Positions 37,730 to 41,432 of a stretch of DNA of 64,000 bases are shown in pieces (position 1 is the stretch's first letter; the number at the start of each line of letters is the position of its first letter). Position numbers and translations under genes: made by a program. Source of the stretch: Desulfosarcina alkanivorans (lineage in GTDB: Bacteria > Desulfobacterota > Desulfobacteria > Desulfobacterales > Desulfosarcinaceae); contig NZ_AP021874.1 in NCBI RefSeq assembly GCF_009688945.1, positions 4,774,001-4,838,000 of the forward strand, written 5' to 3'. The notes beneath the pieces were generated by a model. That model did not search any database, was not told the DNA's origin, and was given only the letters and a program-made list of their open reading frames with translations.

Positions 37730-38314
37730 TGCCGGCCTTTCGTGCACAGGTGTCGGATCGGTCACCGTGGACCGACGATTCTTATGACGTCATTGCCGGC
37801 CGTTTTCAATGAAAAAAGCGGACCTTCGCCTGTCAACGCAACGGGCGCTTCAGGATTAATTGTTTTTCGATGGATGCGGGCCGAATTTCTGGATACCCGA
37901 ACTCCGGGCCCGGACCGCCAAAAAAGGCATCGCCTGCAAGGACCGGCCGGCGTATGAGACGGCATTCCATCGGGCGGCGATGGTGAAAGCGCCACGGTGG
38001 CTTTCTGCCGGCCCATGGGTGACCCTCGAATTCCAATCGACCCGGTGGTTGGGCAGGAGGTGCACCGGCCATTGACGCCGGGCGGATACTGCCGCTATAC
38101 TGATTTGAGGACCATTCCCGTCTGCTCCGGTGAGCATGCCGCCACCCGGTCGCGTCCGTGCTTCAACCGCTTGCTCCACCTGTCGCTGCTTTGCCCCGGC
38201 CCATGGGTAAAAGAACCTGCGGACCAACCGAATTCGTGCCCTGAACGGACACCTGATGGCGGATACGGCAACTGCCCGGAGCACGATAACCCATCAGAAA
38301 AGGGGACCGGAGCG
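37730..38314. other. Intergenic region, 585 bp
   Basis: Divergent region between the MATE gene and the sulfite-oxidase-like gene. The downstream gene's frame is open far into it (from 37997) but upstream of 38315 the sequence is not protein-like. No promoter, repeat or RNA recognised. Confidence 0.45.
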
Positions 38315-39358
38315 ATGACCACGTCCATGCGTATCATGACCGACAATCCGTTGAACGCCGAAACCCCGGCAGCGCGGCTGCGATCCTGGATTACCCCCAA
38401 TGCGGTTTTTTTCGACCGCAACCAGGGCCAGATCCCCGATGCGCCGGCTGATTTGGACACCTGGCGGCTGACCATCGATGGTGACGTCAACCAATCATTG
38501 AAACTGGACCTGGACCGGATCCAGAGCCTCCCCAAAGCCATCGTTGCCAATACCCTGGAGTGTTCGGGCAACAGCCGGTCGCTGCTTGAAAAAAGGGCCC
38601 CCGGGAACCCATGGACCATCGGCGGTGTCGGCAATGCGGTGTGGGGCGGTATCTGGCTTCGCGATTTGCTGAACAAATCCGGCCTGGCGGACCGGGCCGC
38701 CCATGTCGCTTTCGAAGGCATGGACACCCCGCTTGGCAAGTCCCGGATCAAATTCGTCCGCAGCATACCTATCGAAAAGGCGATGTCATCCACCCTGCTG
38801 GCCTATGAAATGAACGGGGACCCACTGCCCCTGAAGCATGGCTATCCCCTGCGGGCCCTGGCCTTGGGATGGACGGGCGCCAACTGCGTGAAATGGCTCA
38901 ATCGAATTACGGTCCTGGAAAGGCCGTTCAAGGGGTTTTTCATGGACCAGGTCTACCGGGTGTTTCAAAAAGGCCAGATGCCCGCGTCCGGGGAGGTGGT
39001 CACCGCCATCCGTCTCAACTCCATCATCACCCGCCCGCTGGCCGGTGAGCGGTTGAAGAAAGGCGATGTGGTGGTTCTCGGCGCCGCCTATGCCGGTGAA
39101 GGTCGCGTGGCGCAGGTCGACGTGTCCACCGACCACGGCGCCTCGTGGCAACCGGCCGAATTCATTGGCCCTGATGAACCTTATGCCTGGCGGCAATGGC
39201 AGTATGTCTGGCGTCCTGACCGGGGGGGGGACCACACACTTTGGTCACGGGCCGTCGACGACCAGGGCGGGCAGCAGCCCATGTCTGCAACCTGGAATTT
39301 CCTCGGCTACGGCAACAACGGCGTCGATGAACACGCCGTGAGGGTCGTCGTCACGTAA
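38315..39358 (+). CDS. Sulfite oxidase-family molybdopterin enzyme, cytoplasmic
   Basis: 347 residues. The molybdopterin-binding Cys is in NTLECSGNSR, near residue 85. Later GMDTPLGKSRIKFVRS, HGYPLRAL and GWTGANCVKWL are oxidoreductase molybdopterin domain signatures, and residues ~240-340 form the C-terminal Mo-co dimerisation domain (VSTDHGASWQPA). No twin-arginine or Sec signal is visible, so it appears cytoplasmic. It may oxidise sulfite or reduce another substrate; exact specificity cannot be read. Confidence 0.85.
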   Translation: MTTSMRIMTDNPLNAETPAARLRSWITPNAVFFDRNQGQIPDAPADLDTWRLTIDGDVNQSLKLDLDRIQSLPKAIVANTLECSGNSRSLLEKRAPGNPWTIGGVGNAVWGGIWLRDLLNKSGLADRAAHVAFEGMDTPLGKSRIKFVRSIPIEKAMSSTLLAYEMNGDPLPLKHGYPLRALALGWTGANCVKWLNRITVLERPFKGFFMDQVYRVFQKGQMPASGEVVTAIRLNSIITRPLAGERLKKGDVVVLGAAYAGEGRVAQVDVSTDHGASWQPAEFIGPDEPYAWRQWQYVWRPDRGGDHTLWSRAVDDQGGQQPMSATWNFLGYGNNGVDEHAVRVVVT

Positions 39359-39395: not shown

Positions 39396-39851
39396 CTATC
39401 GGGGTTTGCGCCTGATCATGCGCCTGATGGTATAGGCCATGACGGTTTCATCGTCCTGATTGCTCACCTGATGAGAAAACCACACGATGCCCCGATCGGT
39501 TTTTTGGGTTTCCCGTCGATCCACCACCTCGATGGCCACCCTGATCGTGTCGCCGACAAAGACCGGTCGGACCACCGTCAGATCGACTCCCAGAAACGCG
39601 ATGCCCGTTTCGTGCAGGATGCCCGAAAGGATCGTCAGGCCCTCGGCCATGGAGAACGTCAGCGCCCCGGGAACGACGGGCTTTTCGTAGGGCGTTTCGC
39701 GTTTGACATAGTCCCGGTCCATGAACAGGGGCTCGAAAAAGCCGAAGGCGGTGGTAAAGTTGAGATGGTCCGCTTCGGTGACCGTGCGGCGGTCGGTGCT
39801 GTACCGCCGGCCCGCCGAGAACTCCTCATAATAAATTCCGCGCCGGCCCAT
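39396..39851 (-). CDS. MaoC-like hotdog dehydratase
   Basis: 151 residues from the ATG at 39851, spaced well from GAAAGGAA; the ATG at 39860 touches that site. The R-hydratase hotdog is seen in VTEADHLNFTTAFGFFEPLFMD (Asp of the DxxxxH-like motif with His replaced by Asn-Phe-Thr) and KPVVPGALTFSMAEGL. The usual catalytic His is not evident, so it may be a CoA-binding protein lacking hydratase activity. It ends 26 bases before the msrA stop side. Confidence 0.7.
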   Translation of the reverse strand: MGRRGIYYEEFSAGRRYSTDRRTVTEADHLNFTTAFGFFEPLFMDRDYVKRETPYEKPVVPGALTFSMAEGLTILSGILHETGIAFLGVDLTVVRPVFVGDTIRVAIEVVDRRETQKTDRGIVWFSHQVSNQDDETVMAYTIRRMIRRKPR

Positions 39852-39877
39852 GGCTTCCATTTCCTTTCACGGCGGAC

Positions 39878-40705
39878 TTACTGACGATCATAATTCCACT
39901 GGCGGTCGGTCATCGCCACCACGGCTTTCCGGCCCGCCTCCGTCAGGCCCAGGCGGTCGATCTCGCGGGCCAGTTGATCCCTGCTGCCGTGCCCGGCCGC
40001 GTAGCCGTTGAGGCGGGCAGCAGCGGTCGAGTCGATCAAATCACGATGAACCGGATAAATCCGGGACATCTCGGCCCTCAGGTTATCGTGCTGTTTGAGA
40101 ATATACTTCTGGTGGTAGTCTTCTGCAAGGGTAAACGTGCGCAGGGGCGCCACCTCGGTCTTGACCTGCCGGCCGAGTTTTTTCTCAACGGCCGACCGGG
40201 ATACCGTCGCCAGCGTCCGTTGCCGGTCGTCGTGGTAAAATATCGCGTTCATGTACTGCCGGGACCACGCACGCCCGGTGGGTTTGTGGCTGCGCCAGAA
40301 GATGTCCAGCAGTCCGTCGTAGGAGATGCGCTGCGGATCATAATCCACCTGCACCGTTTCCGTATGGTCACCGATATGGCCGTAGTCCGGATTATCCTGC
40401 CGGCCGCCGGCGTACCCTACGCGGGTTCGAATGACGCCCTCGATCATCCCGAACCGGGATTCGATGCCCCAGAATCAACCCAGGCCGAAGGAGGCGGTTT
40501 CGAAAACCGCCGGTGCCGACATATCGATGGGTGGGATTGAAGGGGATGGGGCCTCGATTTCATGTGCCAGGTTCATGGCCGCCTCCGTTGGTTCCGATTC
40601 ATGGTTTGCCTGCGAGTCCATCGCCGGGGAGCAGCTCCACAGCAAGAACAGCACGCCCAAATAAACTAAACACGACAGGTGGCTGATGCAGCATCTTTTT
40701 TTCAT
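39878..40705 (-). CDS. msrA: Selenocysteine-containing MsrA lipoprotein (methionine sulfoxide reductase A)
   Basis: 275 residues if the in-frame TGA at 40475-40477 is read as selenocysteine (Sec77). Upstream and downstream parts are in the same frame, and the junction reads ETASFGLG-Sec-FWGIESRFG, where the catalytic Cys of MsrA (GCFWG) is expected. The N-terminus is a lipoprotein signal (hydrophobic core, LLWSC lipobox). Downstream: VGYAGG, GHTE-like GDHTETVQVDYDP and LAEDYHQKY, all MsrA. No Cys follows Sec77, so there is no resolving Cys, as in known Sec-MsrA enzymes. A SECIS-like hairpin follows the TGA. Periplasmic/outer-membrane repair of methionine sulfoxide. Confidence 0.85.
40440..40477 (-). 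promoter_or_regulatory. Sec codon and bacterial SECIS-like hairpin in msrA
   Basis: TGA at 40475-40477. Seventeen to nineteen bases after it, stem AUCCCG-GUU-CGGGAU (40460-40455 with 40451-40446) with an outer UCGA/UCGA pair (40464-40461 with 40443-40440) forms a hairpin with G in the apical loop. The distance and loop resemble E. coli fdhF SECIS. Confidence 0.75.
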
Positions 40706-40991: not shown

Positions 40992-41432
40992 ATGAAAAAG
41001 CAGGTCGATCCACGCATGCACAGCGCCGAGCATCTCCTTAACCAGGCCATGGTACGCCGGTTTGATTGCGGCCGATGCTTCAGCGCCCATATCGAGCGTA
41101 AAAAATCCAAATGCGACTATCGATTCGACAGACCGCTGACCGACGAGGAGGTGGCGTCACTGGAAGAGGACGTCAATGGGGTGATCGAGGCGAACCAGGC
41201 GGTTACGGAACGGTTCGTTCCCATCGATGACGCCCGCAGCGCCTATAACCTGTCGCGGTTGCCCGACCATGCGGGGGACCGAATCCGTATCGTGAGCATC
41301 GGCGATTACGACCACTGCCCGTGCATCGGCCCCCATGTGTCCGCGACCGGAGACATCGGGCGATTTCGGATCACGTCGTCCGGGCATGAAAACGGGGTCC
41401 TGCGCATTCGCTTCAAGCTGACGCGTCCTTGA
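40992..41432 (+). CDS. AlaX-like tRNA-editing domain protein
   Basis: 146 residues from the ATG at 40992 after AAGGAGGA. HxxxH in MHSAEHLLNQAM and CxxxH in CIGPH supply the zinc ligands of the alanyl/threonyl-tRNA synthetase second additional domain. Freestanding AlaX proteins hydrolyse mischarged Ser- or Gly-tRNA(Ala). This one is short and lacks the beta-barrel N-domain, so its tRNA specificity cannot be read. Confidence 0.8.
   Translation: MKKQVDPRMHSAEHLLNQAMVRRFDCGRCFSAHIERKKSKCDYRFDRPLTDEEVASLEEDVNGVIEANQAVTERFVPIDDARSAYNLSRLPDHAGDRIRIVSIGDYDHCPCIGPHVSATGDIGRFRITSSGHENGVLRIRFKLTRP

Follow-up and report, generated by a model that had tools for sequence, protein, structure and literature searches.

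The window (the whole 64,000-nucleotide stretch of DNA analysed) carries on its minus strand a gene of the MsrA family that begins with ATG at 40705 and ends with TAA at 39880..39878 (Table 1). Read without recoding it falls into two open reading frames, 40705..40475 (76 aa, terminated by TGA) and 40447..39878 (189 aa), which share one frame, interrupted solely by the TGA at 40477..40475. Read as selenocysteine (Sec, U), this codon places residue 77 in the context FGLG-U-FWG, the active site of MsrA, at the position of the catalytic Cys, as in the selenoprotein MsrA of Clostridium oremlandii (CoMsrA), where Sec likewise occupies the catalytic position of G-x-FWG. No Cys follows Sec77, and the resolving Cys is thus absent. 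A prior sequence-only reading had given the gene its correct limits, 39878-40705, leaving the strand unstated, and had proposed two in-register frames split by TGA alone, FGLG-x-FWG flanks where Cys belongs, and a Sec-MsrA devoid of resolving Cys; translation of 40705..39878 bears out each of these proposals. It is very probable, judging from sequence, that the gene encodes a peptide methionine-S-sulfoxide reductase with a predicted catalytic Sec and no resolving Cys, exported and probably lipid-anchored.

Table 1. Features of the msrA locus, in window coordinates
Feature	Coordinates	Strand	Details and basis
MaoC-like dehydratase	39396..39860	-	Pfam; 17 nt downstream of msrA
Sec-msrA	39878..40705	-	275-aa selenoprotein; translation with TGA as U; orthologues share the in-frame TGA
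C-terminal helical domain, residues 209-275	39881..40081	-	PF20939-like; model compared with 4lwj
MsrA catalytic domain, residues 71-208	40082..40495	-	PF01625, 143.2 bits (cut-off 23.7)
SECIS-like apical hairpin	40446..40460	-	6 bp, GUU loop at 40454..40452; folding and pair counts
UGA codon, selenocysteine 77, active site GUFWG	40475..40477	-	translation; TGA in relatives
N-terminal export signal, residues 1-25, probable lipobox LLWSC (Cys25)	40631..40705	-	hydrophobic segment by rule

The protein aligns with Cys-MsrAs and, best among solved structures, with those of the C. oremlandii Sec-MsrA (E 1.6e-52), the alignment extending to residue 265; this is the comparison with both kinds of MsrA that had been proposed as a check. 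The C-terminal region matches PF20939, a family named for the selenoprotein MsrA helical domain, at 20.7 bits, below the cut-off of 23.7. A structure predicted from an input of 13 family members (mean pLDDT 79; residues 1-53 poor) superimposes on 4lwj over 202 columns, helical domain included, with a TM score of 0.90 by target length and 0.68 by query, and 43% identity in the structure alignment. Glu116, assigned by spacing, stands at the place of the catalytic Glu55 of CoMsrA, and a Glu is found at +39 from the catalytic residue in all 78 rows examined.

Homologues with an in-frame TGA occur in 14 of 30 genomes of the same taxonomic family, a count that includes the window's own genome and one fragment and leaves out a weak match carrying two TGA (genome G016). 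In one genome of the same genus (G013) the only MsrA match, L039, is stop-free; the Sec form is therefore patchy within the genus. A Sec homologue, L058, is present in Desulfosarcina widdelii. A phylum sample of 395 genomes yielded 45 MsrA places in 44 genomes at E <= 1e-45, a limit of our own choosing that drops weaker members. Of these places, 28 extend into the helical domain, the window's own among them, and every one has the in-frame TGA (two of them carry two); the other 17 stop near residue 201-207 and have no such TGA. We also scanned a species-genome collection using two patterns, one of which held Cys, so that the scan should not favour Sec forms: it found 216 relatives, and in the best 80 of these 216 the catalytic codon is TGA in 74 and TGC or TGT in 6. 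Addition of the window gene and six same-family loci to these best 80, and removal of three duplicates, gave a set of 84 genes, of which 78 have TGA and the other 6 Cys codons; the open frames of two, L121 and L123, are shortened. Five of the Cys rows (L127-L131) extend 160-165 residues past the catalytic position, less than most of the others, and the 79 rows left when they are set aside form what we term the helical-domain group, a group delimited by this subtraction and not by row-by-row checking for the domain. TGA is present in 78 of its 79 rows. The exception, a Dehalococcoidia homologue (L089:5335-5976), has TGC for TGA, yet retains 6 of the 7 hairpin pairs described below; this, together with its position inside a Sec clade, gives it the look of a gene in which Sec gave way to Cys and a remnant SECIS survives.

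The means of decoding a UGA as Sec, which the sequence-only reading had marked for verification, are all present in the single-contig, 7.32-Mb genome: selA (612.5 bits), selB (372.1), selC, the gene for tRNA-Sec (75.4), and selD (372.3) each score above their cut-offs. The selD gene (L050, G000:C1:4927117-4928043) itself has an in-frame TGA, and its product is therefore probably a selenoprotein too. SelB and tRNA-Sec would decode the msrA UGA, aided by a hairpin just 3' of it, as the conservation of that hairpin suggests.

The apical loop of a SECIS is expected to begin with G. The hairpin just downstream of the msrA UGA has such a loop, GUU, at a spacing of 20 nt from the UGA, close to the 19 or so bases and the short G-containing loop first noticed; a lower helix of 4 bp is predicted between 40464..40461 and 40443..40440. 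Its folding energy is ordinary (z -0.86, 40 of 200 shuffles being as stable; z -1.3 against synonymous shuffles), and the mean z of the 78 Sec genes is -1.09, as against -0.29, -0.40 and -0.50 in three control stretches. Because folding energy is weak on its own, we counted the pairs formed and compared them with a null in which synonymous codons were drawn at each gene's own usage, in 2000 simulations. The 78 Sec genes form on average 6.12 of 7 pairs, against 3.99 in the simulations and a simulated maximum of 4.40, and sliding the partner strand by 1 to 3 bases lowers the number to between 1.3 and 4.2. Pairs change in kind: +15/+29 is C-G in 32 genes, A-U in 26, U-A in 5 and G-C in 4; at +16/+28, 52 genes have U-A and 11 have G-C, with mismatches G-A (6) and G-G (4); +20/+24 is G-C in 53 and A-U in 12, the mismatch A-C accounting for 12 more. 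Only 41 of the 78 have a standard pair at +14/+30, and the window gene is not one of them. Among the five Cys homologues that fall outside the helical-domain group, 1 to 3 of the 7 pairs form. By these counts the SECIS-like hairpin is maintained by compensatory changes, beyond what synonymous codon choice would be expected to give. Searches of the 64-kb window for Rfam families and for tRNAs found no match.

The evidence thus far bears on two ways of doing without selenocysteine. Since a single base separates TGA from TGC, a Cys codon (TGC or TGT) might have turned into TGA in a dead gene, or been misread as TGA; we accord this practically no weight and reject it, for the TGA is conserved in relatives (14/30 same-family genomes, 28/28 helical-domain places in the 395 genomes, 78/79 group rows) and the rest of the msrA frame is kept. 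The particular error that the sequence-only reading had named as fatal to its proposal, one at 40475-40477, is excluded because the same TGA is found in other genomes. Very improbable also is a true stop, by which the upstream frame would encode a small lipoprotein and the downstream frame a separate, truncated MsrA initiated at its first Met (residue 87): both frames do have ATG starts, but the second protein would lose the GxFWG active site, and the in-register conservation across the UGA, the presence of the Sec machinery and a hairpin kept by compensation all tell against termination. Conservation leads us to reject this reading as well.

The selenoprotein was also held from the outset to be an exported lipoprotein. 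The signal is clear by our rule (a basic N-terminus together with a hydrophobic run of 12 residues close to the start), a crude one that picks the best of several starts. Lipid anchoring is likely, but the box, LLW-S-C25, with Trp before Ser, is off consensus and misses our coded lipobox pattern. Three near relatives have canonical boxes: LLAC in L052 and L054, LGAC in L053. By the same rule 65 of the 78 Sec genes (from the best 80 of 216 plus additions) have a signal, against 87 of 1497 random open stretches; the coded pattern finds a lipobox-like motif in 23 of these 65 and not in the other 42, the window protein among them. One member, L081, has by eye a twin-arginine lipoprotein signal that the rule misses. 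Of 16 Cys-type MsrAs examined from the same taxonomic family, 14 have a signal by the rule; this control was drawn from 32 stop-free MsrA places, and L040, wrongly sited, is counted in it as having none. Because Cys-type MsrAs are exported too, the Sec form is not special in this respect: these bacteria usually export MsrA. The genome has a second MsrA, of Cys type (L001/L046, G000:C1:2683104-2683589), in a 412-aa open frame, presumably an MsrA-MsrB fusion, with an export signal by rule.

Across the helical-domain group, 65 of 73 scored members have a signal and 8 do not; the six rows outside this count are doubtful (L055, L081, L108, L126) or fragments (L123, L032). With CoMsrA as a ninth signal-less protein, signal state changes at least 6 times on a tree that is midpoint-drawn, with many inner branches unsure, and on which change counts cannot separate gain from loss. 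CoMsrA groups with L103, which is clostridial and also signal-less (support 98/90). By record titles the group spans nine phyla—Thermodesulfobacteriota, Chloroflexota, Nitrospirota, Bacillota, Planctomycetota, Synergistota, Spirochaetota, Acidobacteriota and Actinomycetota—although single placements are uncertain because most members are metagenome bins. Acidobacteriota and Actinomycetota are represented by one member each, without signal; the other seven phyla have members with signal.

A Sec-MsrA that faces the cytoplasm, its N-terminus a mere anchor or unused, and that is served by a cytosolic glutaredoxin as in C. oremlandii, would accommodate the off-consensus lipobox, the 8 of 73 scored members and CoMsrA that are signal-less, and the one glutaredoxin detected in the genome, an 86-aa protein with no signal. 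It accords poorly with the basic N-terminus, hydrophobic segment and Cys25 of the window protein, with the canonical boxes of its three near relatives and with the signals of 14 of the 16 same-family Cys-type MsrAs, and we regard it as improbable. In the exported form that we prefer, the msrA chain would leave the cytoplasm by its own signal.

Sec-MsrA is a known selenoprotein family, a deltaproteobacterial member having been listed in 2006: a table of that survey places MsrA among the selenoproteins of Syntrophobacter fumaroxidans (PMC1794560). MsrA appears as one of the bacterial selenoprotein families in two reviews (PMC13188914, PMC9312934) and is counted as such in a marine survey (PMC2398784). 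In PMC13188914 and PMC2398784 the terms lipoprotein, periplasm and signal peptide are all absent; in PMC9312934 lipoprotein is absent and periplasm occurs twice, neither time on MsrA. The deep-Sep study covered D. widdelii and D. ovata, for which its table gives 38 and 24, apparently numbers of known selenoprotein genes, and the string "Msr" is absent from its text (PMC12013277). Among open-licence literature, no paper on an exported Sec-MsrA was found by title or abstract start.

The closest characterized likeness is CoMsrA, from Clostridium (Alkaliphilus) oremlandii (PDB 4LWJ, 4U66), which shares with the window protein GUFWG, the lack of a resolving Cys, the helical domain and the catalytic Glu. 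CoMsrA cannot do without its helical domain, which some of the selenoprotein MsrAs conserve (PMC4333827). Lacking a resolving Cys and having E55 as catalytic Glu, CoMsrA is reduced by glutaredoxin, not thioredoxin (PMC4479559). Unlike CoMsrA (209 aa), which has no room for an export signal because its Sec is at residue 16, the window protein is longer at its N-terminus by some 60 residues, export signal included. The MsrAB proteins of Streptococcus pneumoniae have a resolving Cys; they are Cys enzymes with no Sec, unlike the window protein. They are likewise exported and repair MetO outside the cytoplasm with surface lipoproteins of thioredoxin fold as partners (PMC3914529).

By analogy with CoMsrA, the selenolate of the window enzyme would attack Met-S-sulfoxide in the envelope, yielding Met and a selenenic acid. 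Because the resolving Cys is absent, an outside dithiol must then reduce the enzyme, and the likely envelope location argues for a donor other than glutaredoxin. That donor might be a periplasmic thioredoxin-fold protein fed by CcdA/DsbD, in place of the glutaredoxin of the Clostridium enzyme. Three DsbD_TM matches occur in the genome; judged from their ORFs, one of them resembles CcdA and another DsbD, the latter with a thioredoxin-type CxxC at its C-terminal end. Since no reductase recurs beside msrA, it is their presence in the genome that points to this route. The CcdA/DsbD-fed donor is a guess, to which we give somewhat less than an even chance and which stands outside the confidence we attach to the main explanation, given above.

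Some relatives may have another solution. Among 77 members of the helical-domain group, 18 end in Cys-Pro, 9 have another Cys after the catalytic residue and 50 have none; the window protein lacks the Cys-Pro tail. This tail, which lies beyond the helical domain and whose state changes at least 10 times on the tree, could possibly supply a resolving Cys for Sec. Six of the 18 (L111, L116, L118, L119, L120 and L124) have three Cys at the same positions, and L079 and L088 have the tail Cys without Pro.

A further-reaching reading, to which we give an even chance, is that Sec-MsrA is mainly an envelope repair enzyme, as its spread over nine phyla, seven with signal, suggests; outside the cytoplasm, selenium would make a resolving Cys unnecessary. 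On this view the Clostridium enzyme, signal-less and served by glutaredoxin, would represent a side branch whose export was lost, and the Cys-Pro-tail subset would have kept a Sec-Cys resolving pair. With this msrA gene comes a well-supported selenoprotein whose coding sequence would be cut in two at the UGA by ordinary gene finding. The gene raises the question of how such a Sec enzyme, which has no resolving residue, is returned to its active state in the envelope, a compartment in which glutaredoxin is not expected, and the family offers natural comparisons, between members with and without a signal and between those with and without the C-terminal Cys-Pro tail. Export, electron source and the Cys-Pro tail elsewhere in the family are its less explored aspects, and lend the gene a mild added interest.

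From its position, the MaoC-like dehydratase gene is possibly co-transcribed with msrA. We clustered 639 ORFs of at least 90 aa from about 6 kb around each of the 79 helical-group genes, retaining groups of at least 4 loci; the dehydratase belongs to none. No conserved reductase partner was found beside msrA among the 79 loci, a survey in which small partners and those on cut contigs could be missed. The largest group, response regulators, covers 6 of the 79 loci, and one 4-locus group is histidine kinase-like; the remaining groups (ketopantoate reductase, molybdenum oxidoreductase, tRNA_SAD) each comprise 4 or 5 near-kin loci, window included. Plasmid records gave no match. Near msrA, at 38300-39358 (+), is a molybdopterin oxidoreductase gene with a sulfite-oxidase-like dimer domain (PF00174, PF03404), found in four relatives too. 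Divergent from msrA, at 40992-41432 (+), and likewise in three relatives, is a gene for a small tRNA_SAD protein resembling a free-standing alanyl-tRNA editing domain.
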